Of a stretch of DNA of 64,000 nucleotides, positions 11,681-18,376 are shown piece after piece; positions within the stretch are counted from its first letter, which is position 1, and every line of letters starts with the position of its first letter. Location of the stretch: assembly GCA_028284365.1 (NCBI GenBank), contig JANQRW010000085.1, positions 1 to 64,000 of the forward strand. The letters run 5' to 3'. Both the position numbers and the translations under genes were made by a program. The notes under the pieces are model-generated. The model searched no databases. It worked only from the letters and a program-made list of their open reading frames with translations, and had not been told where the DNA came from. This DNA is from Marinicella sp. (GTDB taxonomy: Bacteria > Pseudomonadota > Gammaproteobacteria > Xanthomonadales > Marinicellaceae).

Positions 11681-12673
11681 TTATAAACGCGAAGTCCAAG
11701 CCCACTGGTCTGTTGTCTTTCCAGTTTGGATGGCAGTCAATGCTGACCTGAGTTGCATGGTTTGTTCTCCTACATCACCATTGCCTCCCACCAAATATTC
11801 AATCCCCTCGTGAATCATTGATCCTACTGGTGATACCACTGCAGCAGTACCTGACATGAACGCTTCAGATTCCGGTAACCAACTCAACAATTCAGTAACC
11901 GTATAATTAAGTTCCTCAATTTCATAACCACTGCTGGCAGCAAGTTTTAACAACGAATCACGGGTGATGCCTGGTAGGATTGAACCATCCAGACTTTTGG
12001 TGATAATGGTCTTGTTTTTAATCATAATGAAATTAGCGGCTCCAGTTTCCTGCACCTGGCCATCAGGGCAAAATAAAACCTGATCCGCATTAAACTCAGC
12101 TCTTGCCTGTGTGACAGATTCTAAAGAAGCGGCGTAGTTCCCTCCTGTTTTCACCTGTCCAAACTTAGGGGTTGATCGCATATTTTCATCATCAATCAAC
12201 AGCTTCAAAGGCCTGATCCCACCAGAAAAATAATCACCAACTGGTGAAGTTATCACATACAAAATGGCTTCTGTAGAACCGCGCCCTGCGGCTCCAATAT
12301 TCAGTTCTGAACCAATCAAGGTTGGTCTGATGTACAAAGCACCCGGTAGGTTAGGAATTTCATCAACTACACTTTTAACTGCATCAATGATTGCACATTC
12401 AACCAATTCATATGACGGCACTGGCAAGCACAATGATCGAGCACTGTTACGCAGTCGTTTGATGTTTTCTGCATACCTGAATAAATGAATAGAACCATCT
12501 TCCCAACGGTAAGCTTTCAAACCCTCAAAACATGTACTTGAATAGTGTAATACATGAGTTGCTGGGTGTAAATTCAACGGTGCCAAGGGTTGTACTTGAA
12601 CCTCAGACCATTGTTCATCTTTGAAGTGAGCCACCGACATTTTAGTGGTAAAAGCTTGACCGAATTCAGGCAT
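11681..12673 (-). CDS. ilvE: Branched-chain amino acid aminotransferase
   Basis: 330-residue PLP-dependent class IV aminotransferase that interconverts valine, leucine and isoleucine with their 2-oxo acids. Recognisable segments are HYSSTCFEGLKAYR, RPTLIG, GQVKTGGNYAAS with the PLP lysine (K175), and a C-terminal ITRDSLL plus SGTAAVVSPVG. The sequence resembles the longer type II BCAT branch. ATG 12673 was chosen; an in-frame TTG four codons upstream (12685) is possible, and neither has a good ribosome-binding site. It is monocistronic, convergent with the diguanylate cyclase gene and divergent from the NTase gene. Its product 2-oxoisovalerate is the PanB substrate made for the pantothenate operon 5 kb away, though the two are not co-transcribed. 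Confidence 0.93.
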   Translation of the reverse strand: MPEFGQAFTTKMSVAHFKDEQWSEVQVQPLAPLNLHPATHVLHYSSTCFEGLKAYRWEDGSIHLFRYAENIKRLRNSARSLCLPVPSYELVECAIIDAVKSVVDEIPNLPGALYIRPTLIGSELNIGAAGRGSTEAILYVITSPVGDYFSGGIRPLKLLIDDENMRSTPKFGQVKTGGNYAASLESVTQARAEFNADQVLFCPDGQVQETGAANFIMIKNKTIITKSLDGSILPGITRDSLLKLAASSGYEIEELNYTVTELLSWLPESEAFMSGTAAVVSPVGSMIHEGIEYLVGGNGDVGEQTMQLRSALTAIQTGKTTDQWAWTSRL

Positions 12674-12774
12674 TTTTTTGACCAAAGTAAAAGGGGTTGC
12701 TTATTGTAACTGATGCTCAAATTTTGATGTAGATGAATGTTGGTTATTTTTTGATACCATGCAGAAAAATATCT

Positions 12775-12802
12775 TTGTTAATTTGTATATACAGTATATA
12801 CT
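12775..12802 (+). promoter_or_regulatory. Leaderless promoter with palindromic operator for NTase/RHH pair
   Basis: TTGTTA (12775-12780), a 16-base spacer and TATACT (12797-12802) form a good sigma70-like promoter. Predicted transcription start is about 12809, next to the ATG at 12810, so the message would be leaderless. The spacer contains the perfect palindrome TGTATATACA (12784-12793), followed by a second GTATATAC (12794-12801) that overlaps the -10. This is the layout expected for an autorepressor, here probably the ribbon-helix-helix protein encoded downstream. The motifs are seen; the repressor assignment is inference. Confidence 0.6.
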
Positions 12803-12809
12803 TATACTT

Positions 12810-13271
12810 ATGTTTCTTTTAGATGTTTGTCAAGCCTTGGACGATTCTGAAGTCAACTATGCTGTGGTTGGTGGTTATGCTGTCGCACTTCATGGTGCAG
12901 TCAGGGGAACAGTTGATATAGATTTAATTGTCAAATGGCAGAAACAACAATTAATTCAGTTAGAAGAAGCCATGCAAAATCTGGGACTTGTGTCCAGACT
13001 GCCTGTTGATGCTGAAACCATGTATGCATTCAGAGATGAATACACCAACAACCGAAACTTAATCGCTTGGAATTTCTATCACCCGAACGATGCCTCAAAA
13101 CAAATTGATGTCATCATCAATTATGAACTCAAGAGGCAGCCCCTCATTGAAAAAAAAATCAATGCTCAAAACATAAAAATTCTTAATCGAAAAGATCTGA
13201 TTCTAATGAAACAAGCCGCTAACCGCCCTCAAGATATCGAAGACATCAAAGCATTAAAAAGCATAAAATGA
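12810..13271 (+). CDS. Small minimal nucleotidyltransferase (possible toxin-antitoxin component)
   Basis: 153-residue stand-alone polymerase-beta-type nucleotidyltransferase related to AbiEii/MNT-like families. The motif GGYAVALHG followed by the DID pair in GTVDIDLIV supplies the glycine turn and metal-binding aspartates. A further acidic residue in KQIDVIINYE probably completes the site. An upstream in-frame ATG (12759) would add 17 hydrophobic residues and would start before the predicted -35, so ATG 12810 was chosen; it also lines up the fold as in related proteins. The gene overlaps the next by ATGA, so the two form a coupled pair. Either NTase-as-toxin or NTase-as-antitoxin arrangements are known in other modules; which applies here cannot be told. 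Confidence 0.72.
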   Translation: MFLLDVCQALDDSEVNYAVVGGYAVALHGAVRGTVDIDLIVKWQKQQLIQLEEAMQNLGLVSRLPVDAETMYAFRDEYTNNRNLIAWNFYHPNDASKQIDVIINYELKRQPLIEKKINAQNIKILNRKDLILMKQAANRPQDIEDIKALKSIK

Positions 13272-13519
13272 AAACATTACAAATTCACAAACCTGAAATG
13301 ATTGAAATAGGCCAACAAATGAGCCCTGAACAAATCGCACGCTTTTTAGAAGACTTCAGGTTGCTTCATAGCAAAACCATGACCGAAAAAACCACACCCA
13401 TCAGCATCAGAATTCCTGAGAATTTGTTACGCCTGTTCAAAGCTCAATGTAAACAGCAAGGTTTAAAGTACCAAACTCAGATTAAAGAACTTATGAAATC
13501 TTGGATTAAAATCAATTAA
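13268..13519 (+). CDS. Ribbon-helix-helix (CopG/BrnA-like) DNA-binding protein
   Basis: 83 residues. The C-terminal half has the ribbon-helix-helix pattern: a beta strand PISIRIPENLL, a helix with KAQCKQQGLKYQT and a second helix QIKELMKSWI. The N-terminal 45 residues are helical and charged, as in the toxin-binding arms of RHH antitoxins. It overlaps the NTase gene by four bases (ATGA), and only 8 bases separate its stop from the convergent panD stop. The likely operator lies in the promoter of the pair. Its role as antitoxin and autorepressor is inferred from gene organisation. Confidence 0.7.
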   Translation: MKTLQIHKPEMIEIGQQMSPEQIARFLEDFRLLHSKTMTEKTTPISIRIPENLLRLFKAQCKQQGLKYQTQIKELMKSWIKIN

Positions 13520-13527
13520 CCACATTG

Positions 13528-13920
13528 CTAAGCGGCATGCTCAAAATTTTCTTTTCTATGGGTTTCGGCACTTTTCAAGCTGCTGATGTTATTCTCACTA
13601 TCAACAAAAACCAAATTGGGTTGATGCATTTTGGCTTCTTCTGCATCCATTGAACAATAGGCAGCTAAGATCACCAAATCACCTGGCTGATTATGTCGTG
13701 CTGCTGCACCATTAAGACAGATCTCACCTTTACTACCTTCGATTACATAAGTGGTTAAGCGTGAACCACTGTTGCAATTCAATACGTCAATTTGCTGATT
13801 GATTAATAATCCTGCCGCTTTGATTAAATCCGGGCAGATCGACACTGAACCTTCGTAATTGAGGTTGGCGTCGGTCACCGTAGCACGGTGAATTTTGCTG
13901 TGCAGCATGGTTAAGTTCAT
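13528..13920 (-). CDS. panD: Aspartate 1-decarboxylase proenzyme
   Basis: 130-residue pyruvoyl enzyme that makes beta-alanine from aspartate for pantothenate synthesis. It self-cleaves between Gly24 and Ser25 in the motif YEGSVSI to form the pyruvoyl group; both residues are present, as are the following Y-IEG and NGAAAR segments. Length is close to the usual 126. It is the last gene of the seven-gene pan/coa operon, 5 bases downstream of coaX. Confidence 0.96.
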   Translation of the reverse strand: MNLTMLHSKIHRATVTDANLNYEGSVSICPDLIKAAGLLINQQIDVLNCNSGSRLTTYVIEGSKGEICLNGAAARHNQPGDLVILAAYCSMDAEEAKMHQPNLVFVDSENNISSLKSAETHRKENFEHAA

Positions 13921-13925
13921 AAAAA

Positions 13926-14699
13926 TTACTCCTGATTGATTTTGTATGCCAGATACAGTCCTTTGAGGACCAAATCTGGAATGATTTCGTTAAAGATACC
14001 GGCATTTCTGAATATTGAAGTGAAACCGCCAGTGCCTATGATAAGTGGTTGATTACCTTTGAAAGACTTCTGCTTAAGTCCATGAATGATTTCTTTGATC
14101 GCTCCACGGGCACCATAAAACAAACCTGATTGAATGCTTTCATTGGTGTTGCGCCCCAAGACTTCCTCGCGTTCAACTATTTCCACTGAACCAAGCTTGG
14201 ACGCCCCTGATTCCAGTGCTTTCATTGACATTTTCATGCCAGGCATGATGACCCCACCCAGGTATTTTTTTTGTGCTGAGATGGCACAAAATGTGGTTGC
14301 TGTACCCAAATCGATTACGATCGCATCCTGGTTAGGAAACAGATGGGTAATTGCAATGGCATTGGCGATTCTGTCAGCCCCCACTTCCAGCGGGTTGCGA
14401 TAGCCAATTTGTAAACCAGTTTTAACGCCTGCTTGAAGTACGAATGGTTCTATACCAAAGTATTTTTGACAACAGGCATTGATAGGGTACAACACTTCAG
14501 GCACCACCGAACATAATGATATGGCTTCAATATCAACGTGGTTGATATTGTTTTCTCGCAACACACTTCGAAGAAAAACCCCGTATTCATCAGATGAAGC
14601 ACCTGTTTTGGAAGCCATTCTAAATTGAACTTTTAATTCATCTCCATCAAATACACCACCATGCATGTGGCTGTTTCCAATATCCAAACATAAAATCAC
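13926..14699 (-). CDS. coaX: Type III pantothenate kinase
   Basis: 257-residue ASKHA-fold kinase that phosphorylates pantothenate, the first step from vitamin B5 to CoA. Visible motifs are the N-terminal DIGNSH nucleotide loop, GADRIANA, IDLGTATTF and GGVIMPG. This is the CoaX type, not the CoaA of enterics. Its ATG overlaps the coaB stop by four bases, and panD follows after 5 bases. Confidence 0.95.
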   Translation of the reverse strand: MILCLDIGNSHMHGGVFDGDELKVQFRMASKTGASSDEYGVFLRSVLRENNINHVDIEAISLCSVVPEVLYPINACCQKYFGIEPFVLQAGVKTGLQIGYRNPLEVGADRIANAIAITHLFPNQDAIVIDLGTATTFCAISAQKKYLGGVIMPGMKMSMKALESGASKLGSVEIVEREEVLGRNTNESIQSGLFYGARGAIKEIIHGLKQKSFKGNQPLIIGTGGFTSIFRNAGIFNEIIPDLVLKGLYLAYKINQE

Positions 14700-15355
14700 G
14701 CGGCCACCTCCTGCTGTTTCACAATCTCATCCGAGAGGTGTTGAATGTGATCACATTGGATAGAGGTAACCTTTGAATGCAATTCAAAAGTGTGGATTTT
14801 ATCGCAAATATCATTGAGGTCGTTATGAGCCACAAAATCTATGGCTTCTTGTTTGATCAATTTATCAACAGCAGCTTGACGAACAGCCTGCTCCTTTGAA
14901 TTGGTGAGTTTGAAAGCCACCACCAACAATTCTGAGTTTTTCGACCAATGCTTTAAATTTGAAACTAACTTGGGCTGTTTCATCAGCTGTAATTGCACAT
15001 CATCTGCAGTTGGCAGTTTAACTCCCCTACCGGCTTGAAATTCCTTACCATCTAATAAAACCGAAGAAACTTTAAAATCACTCACCGCTGCTGCCTGAAA
15101 GACCACGTCAAATGGTTCACTGGATAAAACTTGTTTTAATTCTCTGGCCAAATCCTCAAAAGTCTCATAACTTATTTGCTCTACTTTACTTGCAGGCTTT
15201 ACCGCAGTTTTTGCACCTAACCAAGTAACTTCATGACCCTGTGCCGACAGGTGGTCACACAACACTGCTCCAGTGTTGCCACTGCTACAATTACCAATAT
15301 AGCGTACCCCATCTATGTATTCTTTGGTTCCCCCCGCAGTCACTAATACTTTCAT
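14696..15355 (-). CDS. coaB: Phosphopantothenate-cysteine ligase, stand-alone CoaB
   Basis: 219 residues matching only the CoaB half of the usual CoaBC fusion. It joins 4'-phosphopantothenate to cysteine with nucleotide activation. Family marks are LVTAGGTKEYIDGVR, NCSSGNTG (the nucleotide-binding N-x-SSG loop), FQAAAVSDF, VVAFKLT and the conserved asparagine of FVAHNDL. The GNTG and FKLT variants differ from the enterobacterial fusion form (SSGKMG and FAAET). It overlaps coaC upstream and coaX downstream by four bases each. Separate genes imply that the ligase and decarboxylase assemble as two polypeptides. Confidence 0.9.
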   Translation of the reverse strand: MKVLVTAGGTKEYIDGVRYIGNCSSGNTGAVLCDHLSAQGHEVTWLGAKTAVKPASKVEQISYETFEDLARELKQVLSSEPFDVVFQAAAVSDFKVSSVLLDGKEFQAGRGVKLPTADDVQLQLMKQPKLVSNLKHWSKNSELLVVAFKLTNSKEQAVRQAAVDKLIKQEAIDFVAHNDLNDICDKIHTFELHSKVTSIQCDHIQHLSDEIVKQQEVAA

Positions 15356-15882
15356 ACGTGTTGCTCCACAACTGTTAATATATCTTCAATTTCTGGCATC
15401 CGCCCAGCACCACGTTCTCCACAGGCTAAATCCCCCTGTGCAGGCGGCATGATGTTGATACCCCATGCTTTCAATGCATTAATGGCTGACTGTGTGGCAG
15501 GGTATTGCCACATCATGGTGTTCATCGCTGGTACAATCACCAAAGGTTTTTTCAATCCATATGCCGCCACAAAAACGGTGGTAACTACATCATCAGCAAT
15601 GCCCGCAGCTAGTTTGTTGATCACATTAGCTGTTGCTGGACAGAGGATAATTTGATCAGCCCAGCGGCTCACATGTATATGATCCATCATGGCACCCGAT
15701 TCATACACTGAAGTCATTACTGGGTTTTGGCTTAATCCTTCTAAAGTGGCTTCACCAACAAAATTCAATGTAGCAGGCGTACATACCACCTTGACTTCAT
15801 CACCTTGTTTAACCCAAGTCGAGATCAATTGGGTGGCTTTGGCACAGGCAATTGACCCTGACATCATCAGTAACCGTTTCAC
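15352..15882 (-). CDS. coaC: Phosphopantothenoylcysteine decarboxylase, stand-alone CoaC
   Basis: 176-residue flavoprotein that decarboxylates 4'-phosphopantothenoylcysteine to 4'-phosphopantetheine. Visible marks are GSIACAKA at the N-terminus, the catalytic-histidine segment HIHVSRWAD, the FMN-binding LCPATANVINKLA, the PAMNTMMW clamp and ACGERGAGRMPE with the active-site cysteine. It ends where the CoaC domain ends in fused CoaBC, and the ligase follows as a separate gene with an ATGA overlap. Confidence 0.92.
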   Translation of the reverse strand: MKRLLMMSGSIACAKATQLISTWVKQGDEVKVVCTPATLNFVGEATLEGLSQNPVMTSVYESGAMMDHIHVSRWADQIILCPATANVINKLAAGIADDVVTTVFVAAYGLKKPLVIVPAMNTMMWQYPATQSAINALKAWGINIMPPAQGDLACGERGAGRMPEIEDILTVVEQHV

Positions 15883-16652
15883 ACTTCTGCTCCAACTCGA
15901 TACGGTACATTATCAATCAAACGAATCTCACCTAATTTCACGGCCCCTAACAAACGGTCACCAAATACTTCCAGATAGTCCACCTCAAATCCAATATCAG
16001 CTAAATGATTTTTCTTCTCCCTTATGGTTAATTCATTGATCAAGGTGGCATAAAACTCCGGCGCAATCTTCCTTTCAATAGCAGATAACCGCCTGTTCCT
16101 TGAACTCATGGCCAAACCATCAGCTTCTCTGATGATTGGGCAAGCAAAAATCTCAACCGGTACAAAAAACGCCTTCACCATTCCCTTAATCAACTGCAAC
16201 TGTTGGTAATCCTTTTCACCAAAATAAGCTTTATCGGCTTGCACCACATTCAATAGCTTCATCACTACAGATAACACACCATCGAAATGACCAGGCCTAT
16301 GGGCACCACAAAATTTCTGGCTCAACTGATTTTCACTCACCTGGTAAACATAATCATCTGGATACAAGATACCAAAATCAGGTAAAAATACTGCCGTAAC
16401 CTCAGCATCTTCTAGCACCCTTAAGTCTTCAGCCAAGGTATCAGGATAGTTGTCCAAATCTGCTTGTTGATCGAACTGGGTTGGGTTAACAAAAATACTA
16501 ACCACCACATAATCATTTTCAGCTTTAGCAGCCTCAATCAATGACATGTGACCAGCATGTAGCGCTCCCATGGTAGGGACGAAACCAATGCTTCCTCTTA
16601 ATTCTGACCGATAACTCTGAAAAGCTTCTATTTGTTTAATTTGATGCATCAA
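15879..16652 (-). CDS. panC: Pantothenate synthetase
   Basis: 257-residue ATP-dependent ligase joining pantoate and beta-alanine. The nucleotidyltransferase marks are clear: FVPTMGALHAGHMSLI (HxGH), FVNPTQF, FCGAHRPGHFDGV, YFGEKDYQQL and the KMSKS-like MSSRNRRL. It is slightly shorter than E. coli PanC (283). It overlaps panB upstream and coaC downstream by four bases each. Confidence 0.96.
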   Translation of the reverse strand: MMHQIKQIEAFQSYRSELRGSIGFVPTMGALHAGHMSLIEAAKAENDYVVVSIFVNPTQFDQQADLDNYPDTLAEDLRVLEDAEVTAVFLPDFGILYPDDYVYQVSENQLSQKFCGAHRPGHFDGVLSVVMKLLNVVQADKAYFGEKDYQQLQLIKGMVKAFFVPVEIFACPIIREADGLAMSSRNRRLSAIERKIAPEFYATLINELTIREKKNHLADIGFEVDYLEVFGDRLLGAVKLGEIRLIDNVPYRVGAEV

Positions 16653-17437
16653 TACTGCTCCGATTCATCTGGATATTGCTGGTTTTTGGTGTCTTTAGCA
16701 AAAGCGTTGAAAGCATCAAGAAATAACTGCTCGGTGTTTAAGTAACGTCGCAAAAACTTAGGACTAAACTGTGATGAAAAACCCAACATATCCTGCATGA
16801 CCAAAACCTGACCATCAGTGGCCGCACCTGCACCAATTCCAATTGAAATCATATCAATTTGCTGCACCAGTTCTTGCGTGAGTTCATTTGGTACACACTC
16901 GAGTACCACGGCAAAACATCCAAGTGATTCCAGCATCTTTGCCTCTGCTATGATTCTGGTTTGCTCGTCATTTGATTTACCTTGAACCTTAAAACCACCA
17001 AATTGGTTAACCGATTGTGGAGTTAGCCCCAAATGGCCCATGACTGGTACACCAGACTCAACAATGTGCTGGATCAAACCTTCATTACCAGCCACACCTT
17101 CCAATTTAATCGCATGTGCACCTGCTTTCATTAATGCTTCAACTGCAGCCATGTTTTCATCCAATGACTTGCGGTATGAAAGAAACGGCATGTCACCAAC
17201 AATGAACTTATCTGGTGCTCCTTTGGCCACAGCTTTGACGTGTTGTGCCATGGTTGACACATCAATAGGTAAAGTTGAATTTTCACCATGCATGACCATC
17301 GCGGCAGAGTCTCCAACCAGAATCATCTCTACATCCGATTGATTCATGATACGCGCCGAAGAAAAATCATAGCAGGTTAACATCGTTAGTTTTTCACCTG
17401 TCTTTTGTTTGGCATATAAATGGTTGATGGTGATCAT
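16649..17437 (-). CDS. panB: 3-methyl-2-oxobutanoate hydroxymethyltransferase
   Basis: 262-residue TIM-barrel enzyme that adds a hydroxymethyl group from methylene-tetrahydrofolate to 2-oxoisovalerate, giving ketopantoate. Family marks: LTCYDFSSARI, ILVGDSAAMVMHG, VGDMPFLSY, IKLEG, VMGHLGLTPQS and IGIGAG. It overlaps the upstream DUF2520 gene and the downstream panC by four bases each. Confidence 0.96.
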   Translation of the reverse strand: MITINHLYAKQKTGEKLTMLTCYDFSSARIMNQSDVEMILVGDSAAMVMHGENSTLPIDVSTMAQHVKAVAKGAPDKFIVGDMPFLSYRKSLDENMAAVEALMKAGAHAIKLEGVAGNEGLIQHIVESGVPVMGHLGLTPQSVNQFGGFKVQGKSNDEQTRIIAEAKMLESLGCFAVVLECVPNELTQELVQQIDMISIGIGAGAATDGQVLVMQDMLGFSSQFSPKFLRRYLNTEQLFLDAFNAFAKDTKNQQYPDESEQY

Positions 17438-18261
17438 AACTTTTTCATTTTTTCTTGTTGATCAACAGCATGATGTGACTCCAAAAATGTTTCATATATC
17501 ACCGCCAATGGATGTTTGTCCAAAGCCAATAAATGCTTTTGGATGGTTTGATAATCACCACGAACCAAAGGTCCGGTGGCCGCATTCTGCGGGTTGGCAA
17601 CAAAATTAGCCGTATTTTGCATCAGATATTGAGACATGATTTCTGATGGTAAACCTATACCTGGCAACTGTGTATTAATTGATTGCCAAAGCATTTGGCT
17701 GAAATTACCAGCCATCACACAATAAGCATGATAAATGGCTTTGTGTTCAGCTTTTATCTTATACACGGGGTTTCTAAACAGTGGCAACAGCTCACTGAAA
17801 TTAACACCTTCATCTATTACAAATGGAATACTCTGATATGCTTTCAATTCGTATAATTCTGAACCAAAAGTCATTAAAGGATGGCACCCAACAGCTAAAT
17901 TGGAGTGCAATGAACCGGAAAAATGGATGCAGGTTTTATGTGAAAGTATTGGATTCGAATCTATGAATCGTTCAATCTGATCATCAGGAATTAAAATCAA
18001 AACTTTATCGATATTCTGAATCACTTCACGTAGTTCGGAATGCTTGGTTTGAAATTGTTGTGATAACTTATGTTTAAACCGAGCCAGTCTGGAACGACTT
18101 TCTGTCTGGTTTGGTGATTTGTTATTTCGAAACCAATGAACATAAGGCTGTCCCACCAATTCAAAATAATGAATCATGTGTTGAGCCACTCTGCCATTAC
18201 CCACAACGGCAACCACCTCATGGTTCTGGGGATTATTTATATCGGGTACCTGTCGATTCAC
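17434..18261 (-). CDS. Rossmann/DUF2520 protein, candidate ketopantoate reductase
   Basis: 275 residues: an N-terminal Rossmann domain with the dinucleotide loop VVGNGRVAQ (about 18-26), the strand-end KVLILIPDDQIERF, and a C-terminal helical DUF2520 domain with HPLMTFG, HAYCVMAGNF and GPLVRGD. It is first in the pan/coa operon and overlaps panB. The step between PanB and PanC, reduction of ketopantoate to pantoate, has no other gene here. Francisella uses a non-PanE reductase named PanG for this step, so this is the obvious candidate; the assignment is inference. The start is GTG at 18261 with GAGGA (18270-18274) 8 bases upstream. Confidence 0.72.
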   Translation of the reverse strand: MNRQVPDINNPQNHEVVAVVGNGRVAQHMIHYFELVGQPYVHWFRNNKSPNQTESRSRLARFKHKLSQQFQTKHSELREVIQNIDKVLILIPDDQIERFIDSNPILSHKTCIHFSGSLHSNLAVGCHPLMTFGSELYELKAYQSIPFVIDEGVNFSELLPLFRNPVYKIKAEHKAIYHAYCVMAGNFSQMLWQSINTQLPGIGLPSEIMSQYLMQNTANFVANPQNAATGPLVRGDYQTIQKHLLALDKHPLAVIYETFLESHHAVDQQEKMKKL

Positions 18262-18280
18262 AGATCAAGTCCTCATAATC

Positions 18281-18295: not shown

Positions 18296-18348
18296 AAAAG
18301 CTCAACCAATTAAAAAGTCACCGTTCGCAATGAATCAGTGCTGTTTGA

Positions 18349-18376
18349 ATTATAAGTGCCTTTAGCTGAATATCAA
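18349..18376 (-). promoter_or_regulatory. Promoter of pan/coa operon
   Basis: On the minus strand, TTGATA (18376-18371), a 16-base spacer and a perfect TATAAT (18354-18349) form a near-consensus sigma70 promoter. Transcription would start near 18342, leaving a leader of about 80 bases before the GTG start at 18261. Confidence 0.75.

Follow-up and report, generated by a model that had tools for sequence, protein, structure and literature searches.

A probable PanG-type ketopantoate reductase of Marinicella whose gene starts within a candidate pan-like RNA hairpin

The stretch of DNA analysed here, referred to below as the window, comprises 64,000 nucleotides of a Marinicella sp. contig (NCBI GenBank assembly GCA_028284365.1, contig JANQRW010000085.1, positions 1 to 64,000) and carries a pantothenate operon in the order panG-panB-panC-coaC-coaB-coaX-panD. 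All of its genes are on the minus strand and panG is the first of them:

17434..18261, minus strand: panG, coding for a DUF2520 protein of 275 aa with a GTG start (called from PF10728, the tree, the phyletic pattern and an AlphaFold2 model)
16649..17437, minus strand: panB, ketopantoate hydroxymethyltransferase (PF02548, E 4.8e-99; TIGR00222 over cut-off)
15879..16652, minus strand: panC, pantoate--beta-alanine ligase (PF02569; TIGR00018 over cut-off)
15352..15882, minus strand: coaC, phosphopantothenoylcysteine decarboxylase, a separate gene (PF02441 over cut-off)
14696..15355, minus strand: coaB, phosphopantothenate--cysteine ligase, a separate gene (PF04127 over cut-off)
13926..14699, minus strand: coaX, type III pantothenate kinase (PF03309; NF009855 over cut-off)
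13528..13920, minus strand: panD, aspartate 1-decarboxylase (TIGR00223, 150.4 bits against a cut-off of 106)

The panG and panB genes overlap by 4 nt and the later neighbours are joined by 4-nt overlaps as well, but a 5-nt gap stands ahead of panD. The coaC and coaB products align to the N-terminal and C-terminal halves, respectively, of the TIGR00521 coaBC model, the first falling below the whole-protein cut-off of that model and the second likewise scoring below its cut-off. An earlier note on this DNA had described an operon, headed by the gene for a DUF2520 protein that overlaps panB, in which ketopantoate reductase is the one pantothenate enzyme not recognised. The Pfam and NCBIfam identification of panB, panC, panD and the other genes, the PF10728 match and the 4-nt overlap bear this description out. 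Downstream of the operon and on the same strand (11681-12685, minus) we observed an ilvE-type branched-chain aminotransferase gene, whose product could provide PanB with its substrate, ketoisovalerate. Between panD and ilvE, on the plus strand (12759-13519), a DUF6036 nucleotidyltransferase gene precedes a CopG-antitoxin-like gene, and the two look like a toxin-antitoxin-type pair.

The panG product matches PF10728 (DUF2520) with an E-value of 2.5e-17 and 63.2 bits against a cut-off of 25, and this is the sole Pfam family over its cut-off. No NCBIfam family was over its cut-off for this protein, no Pfam Rossmann model matched it, and neither of the PanE/ApbA domains (PF02558 and PF08546) matched it at E ≤ 1. 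The expectation that databases would label the protein only as DUF2520 proved right, as annotated records of such proteins carry just that name. There is accordingly a gap in naming, in that Pfam gives the scanned proteins just DUF2520 (some with generic Rossmann models in addition) and none of the NCBIfam models passes its cut-off for them. We also searched the genome to which the window belongs (3.11 Mb in 91 contigs, 99.84% complete) and found one DUF2520 gene and an ilvC gene. PF08546, the C-terminal domain of PanE, gave no match in this genome, and the same search was positive in 8 of 14 control genomes. We considered whether the four weak PF02558 matches in the genome might be PanE and rejected this, since their ORFs, judged by reading the ORFs alone, look like a UDP-sugar dehydrogenase, GpsA, TrkA and TcdA/ThiF, and PF08546 is absent. 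A panE elsewhere in the genome would have spoken against the proposal of the earlier note, namely that the DUF2520 gene is probably PanG, and no PanE was found in this assembly.

Scanning the contigs of named records confirmed 97 relatives of the window protein, of which the best 80 were kept. In 78 of these best 80 of 97 loci panB lies directly downstream of the homologue, the exceptions being L105 and L106, so the link between DUF2520 and panB is not a matter of chance. The nearest named relative among the best 80 of 97 is from Marinicella marina (59% identity), and the record titles include, among others, Gamma- and Alphaproteobacteria, Bdellovibrionota, Acidobacteria, Neomarinimicrobiota, Riflebacteria and Myxococcota. 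Most of the relatives are MAGs, and the title of at least one, L093 (Streptomyces griseus), seems doubtful.

PanG (FTT1388) of Francisella was reportedly identified as a ketopantoate reductase by Miller and colleagues in 2013. As far as the available text of the papers goes, panG encodes a ketopantoate reductase able to substitute for panE (PMC5449765, PMC4494066), and one paper connects homologues of FTT1388 to a DUF2520 protein (PMC4572677). A DUF2520 gene was found in 25 of 30 genomes from the family to which a named Francisellaceae record belongs, and at these 25 loci panB adjoins the DUF2520 gene, whose product is 32-37% identical to the window protein (the gene at L141 looks truncated). 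The proposal that the window gene is PanG hung on homology to PanG, and these panB-adjacent Francisellaceae genes are homologous to it; together with the phyletic pattern described below they support that proposal. The homologue at L130 is 36% identical to the window protein (E 7e-41). L130 carries panG-panB-panC, and the PDB entries nearest to its PanC are 3n8h/3qtt/5hg0 (E 2e-115), presumably entries for F. tularensis PanC. Loci of the L130 type would then belong to Francisella, judging by the similarity of their PanC to 3n8h. Like Francisella PanG, the window protein is encoded directly upstream of panB and has the conserved residues in common with it; unlike Francisella PanG, it is 37 aa longer than the L130 protein, with an insert at about residues 47-75, and its genome has ilvC.

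In a tree of 43 rows, the window protein, the Francisella-like proteins and the other panB-linked proteins, together with L105 and L106, fall on one side (33 rows), and a branch with 100/100 support separates them from the DUF2520 proteins encoded away from panB and a protein of Enterococcus faecium. The tree is rooted at its midpoint, and the long Enterococcus branch is possibly misplaced. Despite its side of the tree, the E. faecium DUF2520 gene adjoins panB; its product is 22% identical to the window protein. On one E. faecium plasmid (L163, NZ_AP019409.1) we observed a DUF2520-panB-panC-panD arrangement with a pan leader, flanked by IS256 and ISL3 transposase genes, and PanB matches occur in 106 Enterococcus plasmid records. 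The name PanG now covers two families, the DUF2520 PanG and, since 2024, the PanE-type YkpB of B. subtilis. According to the available text of the paper that named it (PMC11487621), YkpB shares the name and the reaction, but it belongs to the same family as YlbQ/PanE and not to the DUF2520 PanG.

An AlphaFold2 model of the window PanG has a pLDDT of 85.2, with low confidence in the insert at about residues 47-75. The nearest PDB entries to the model are 3d1l (Z 16.3, rmsd 3.2, 233 aligned residues), annotated as a putative NADP oxidoreductase, and 2i76 (Z 15.4), both of them presumably DUF2520 proteins. Prephenate dehydrogenases and imine reductases are the next structural neighbours, and Foldseek also returned ketol-acid reductoisomerases, the IlvC fold. 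PanG would have a Rossmann domain at the N-terminus and a helical domain at the C-terminus. Conservation was counted over 102 panB-linked rows, with identical rows used once and the short row from the truncated-looking L141 gene dropped. The GxG motif of the Rossmann domain is kept throughout (G21 and G23 in 102 of 102 rows), the invariant positions further include D93, H127, P128, Y177, H178, G230, P231, R234 and D236, and H113 and N186 are each kept in 101 rows. Most conserved positions are common to the nine unlinked rows and the E. faecium protein. We did not find a lysine among the positions kept in at least 93% of the 102 rows. PanE catalysis uses a lysine, and we infer from the conserved residues that PanG may instead rely on His and Asn (H127, H178 and N186). 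Similarly, a W43-x-R45 motif after strand 2 suggests a preference for NADPH. The window protein thus shares with PanE/ApbA (PF02558 plus PF08546) its probable reaction and broadly the same two-domain oxidoreductase architecture, but differs in having neither domain and no lysine among its well-kept positions.

The phyletic pattern was drawn from 81 genomes (the window's own and 80 relatives) searched for DUF2520, PF08546, panB and ilvC, where a gene was scored as present only if it was over its curated cut-off. Among the 33 genomes of the window's own family, DUF2520 and panB occur together in 25 and are both missing from 8, with no mixed case. Neither PanE nor IlvC was found in 9 of the 25 panB-positive family genomes; the completeness of these nine is 87-99%, and because several of them are drafts in this range, single absences may be gaps. 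PanG would close the pantothenate pathway in this family, in which these nine genomes show no match to another known reductase. Marinicella gelatinilytica (L057) and M. pacifica (L100) both have panG-panB, and neither PanE nor IlvC was found in them. Across the full set, 71 of the 81 genomes are panB-positive, with DUF2520 in 37 of them, PanE in 17, both in 1 and neither in 18 (Fisher p about 1e-5 for DUF2520 against PanE, with relatedness ignored), and 14 panB-positive genomes have DUF2520 with neither PanE nor IlvC. PanG and PanE were found together in G057, in G092 and in 5 of 29 Francisellaceae. The DUF2520 gene adjoins panB in 29 of the 37 genomes and lies elsewhere in the other 8; these 8, and L105 and L106, where it likewise lies apart from panB, show that DUF2520 is not tied exclusively to pan loci. 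Three genomes (G045, G054 and G056) are panB-positive and have no match to PanE, IlvC or DUF2520 over cut-off, which points either to a fourth route or to genes overlooked in the searches or lacking from the assemblies. Of these, G045 and G054, whose panB regions are L142 and L143, possibly harbor a fourth ketopantoate reductase.

Homology, operon, fold, phyletic pattern and the absence of PanE all point to the 275-aa DUF2520 protein being a PanG-type ketopantoate reductase, which we consider very probable, and it is then a new member of an already known enzyme family. PanG would take the place of PanE, reducing ketopantoate made by PanB, the product of the next gene, to pantoate in an NAD(P)H-dependent reaction, and the pantoate would then be used by PanC. 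As ilvC is present in the genome, it might be supposed that IlvC is the working ketopantoate reductase and that the DUF2520 protein serves the operon in some other, perhaps auxiliary, way; the available text of PMC11487621 indeed describes IlvC as a third ketopantoate reductase of B. subtilis, and reports that it reduces ketopantoate there. However, of the 25 family genomes that are panB-positive, the nine in which IlvC and PanE were not found keep DUF2520 beside panB, and where panB is gone and ilvC is retained (for instance, in G021 and G027) DUF2520 is absent, so we regard this division of labor as quite unlikely. It is less likely still that the DUF2520 protein reduces a different substrate and was drawn into the operon while an unseen enzyme reduces ketopantoate. 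The closest solved structures carry no assigned substrate, and the three panB-positive genomes with no match to the three known reductases would fit such an enzyme, but the window protein falls on the side of the tree that holds the Francisella-like genes, a group with PanG activity reported in the literature as partly available to us.

Upstream of this probable PanG gene lies a leader with three features:

18349..18376, minus strand: sigma-70-like promoter, TTGATA-16-TATAAT, with 11 of 12 consensus matches and (nearly) invariant TATAAT columns in 23 leaders
18316..18342, minus strand: hairpin H1, pan-like, a stem with two bulged A's (RNAalifold, covariation; 25.8 bits with the hairpin model R1 described below)
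18245..18272, minus strand: hairpin H2, pan-like, a stem with two bulged A's (RNAalifold; 26.8 bits with R1)

The promoter search found one promoter against 0.5 expected in shuffles. The promoter ends 6 nt ahead of H1, which places the probable transcript start at H1 or close to it. H1 and H2 stand in tandem, 43 nt apart, ahead of panG-panB-panC...panD. The GTG start codon of panG (18261-18259) lies in the loop of H2, and an AGGA Shine-Dalgarno sequence overlaps the 5' arm of H2.

We aligned 23 leaders of the Marinicella family by sequence, and RNAalifold predicted both hairpins from this alignment unprompted. The four bulged A's, two per hairpin, are invariant in the 23 leaders. H1 has both-sided changes in 6 of its 10 pairs, with 98.3% of cells paired, and 99.1% of cells are paired in the named leader structure. 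The covariation score of the 23 leaders is 0.197 compared to 0.094 in shuffles, a value reached in none of 500, and does not exceed 0.061 when the structure is slid. In the same 23 leaders H2 shows no double changes and 8 of its 9 pairs are fixed; it gains no support from covariation in this set because it hardly varies there. In a wider set, H2 changes from G-C to A-U at its second pair (L118 and L124) and from U-G to C-G (L086). A further alignment of 50 hairpins (37 H1 and 13 H2 rows, from 59 and 46 listed) has both-sided changes in 9 of 9 pairs, a result that leans towards structure because the H1 rows from beyond the Marinicella family were located through their pairing and selected by eye. 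The 23-leader alignment, made by sequence, is the cleaner test of covariation.

Among the best 80 of 97 named loci, H2 was found at the panG start in 72, using a search pattern that permits limited variants only. An in-frame ATG or GTG lies in the loop in 47 of these 72 loci, and in the other 25 the first in-frame start is 0-7 nt past the 3' arm. The single-sequence minimum-energy fold of the window leader contains H1 and a different 3' part with no H2 (z -1.9; 8 of 200 shuffles fold as well), and since this other 3' structure is favored, H2 may depend on a partner or represent one of two states. The structural score of H1 beats all 20 shuffles in just 71 of 110 leaders, so this score supports H1 in part of the leaders rather than in all. 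Many panG proteins carry an N-terminal (R)QVP, encoded within GGACTTGATC-n-GACARGTACC. We considered this as a feature of the protein, for instance a docking tail, and rejected it, as the same nucleotides precede the start codon in 25 of the 72 loci (best 80 of 97); the occurrence of this DNA ahead of the start codon in other loci marks it as a nucleic-acid element.

The available text of Weinberg et al. 2010 (PMC2864571) describes the pan motif as tandem hairpins with two conserved bulged A's per stem, located upstream of pan genes, and the pan motif literature, as partly available, names no ligand or partner. The window leader resembles this motif (RF01749) in having two-bulged-A stems, in tandem, upstream of a panB/panC/panD operon. 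It differs in that the Rfam model does not recognise it, in that a downstream hairpin of the window type encloses or touches the start codon, and in that the H2-type sequence GGACUUGAUC..GACARGUACC is nearly fixed. RF01749 gave no match in the window, where the leader was absent even at E ≤ 10, none at the gathering score in 19 loci, and none at E ≤ 10 in L089, L086, L144, L098 and L112. The same model matched the control leaders of Listeria panBCD (63.1 bits) and E. faecium DUF2520-panBCD (41.7 bits). Rfam was set aside as a route to the leader element, having returned nothing relevant in the window or the loci, and as the gathering score is not reached we call the leader pan-like.

We also built a hairpin model, R1, without the Listeria and Enterococcus leaders; its E-values are rough. 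Of the Listeria pan hairpins, R1 matches the second, at 20.1 bits (E 9e-4 in 15 kb); it gave no match to the Enterococcus leader. In the 64-kb window it finds H1 and H2 only, both of which belong to its training set. In 57 further loci it matched 42 at E ≤ 1, and the matches fall almost without exception on the start of panG; many of the R1 matches repeat training sequences, and some of the loci are training rows. The idea that the element accompanies panB in general was rejected, as 28 loci with no linked panG (8 unlinked DUF2520 loci and 20 panB regions) yielded one clear match, at L144 (28.7 bits); L151 gave a weak one (14.3 bits, E 0.47). We class the leader as a pan-like RNA, which most likely represents a divergent branch of the pan motif. 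In a literature covered partially and mainly by title, we found no paper title reporting a pan-like element for these lineages, and as far as that coverage goes a pan-like RNA placed on the start codon is a new variant of the pan motif.

The H2-type hairpin around the panG start probably controls the operon. H1 lies near the probable 5' end of the transcript, and H2, if it folds in the cell, would wrap the Shine-Dalgarno sequence and start codon of panG. In the likely mechanism some factor, be it a protein or a small molecule belonging to the pathway, would stabilise the hairpins and block translation of panG, and this block would lower the coupled genes through the 4-nt overlaps. What the data show is the conserved element, the covariation in H1 and the position of the hairpins. 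On balance, we incline to see here a widespread branch of pan RNA, missed by Rfam in the scanned loci, that is written into the panG start and gates the access of ribosomes to panG and the coupled pantothenate and CoA genes, in which case (R)QVP would be imposed by the RNA and not by the enzyme. The same element might act instead as a DNA operator for a transcription factor, given that H1 is an inverted repeat just past the -10 box, a common position for operators, and that the window leader, folded as RNA to its minimum energy, lacks H2. We think this unlikely. G-U pairs occur in the stem (14 U-G cells at pair 5-23), and both arms retain an unpaired A for which a DNA palindrome would have no need. 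H2 also keeps its place at the start of translation both where its loop holds the start codon and where the codon follows shortly, and the same architecture is that of Rfam's pan motif in Listeria and Enterococcus. The leader matters more than the enzyme, as one pan hairpin on a start codon gives a direct and testable mechanism. This mechanism would apply to Marinicella as well as to the Francisella-like, Legionellales, Bdellovibrio and other loci in which Rfam reports nothing.

Two further arrangements of these hairpins were observed. The leaders of the Francisella-like loci L130 and L137-L141 contain a candidate pan-like hairpin further upstream, found in the pairing search, and another between that one and H2, seen by eye, and may thus hold three hairpins. 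In the genome G056, which has no PanE, IlvC or DUF2520 match, a panB operon (L144:3359-4287) has a pan hairpin just upstream with no panG between, and here the RNA seems to have outlived the panG gene.
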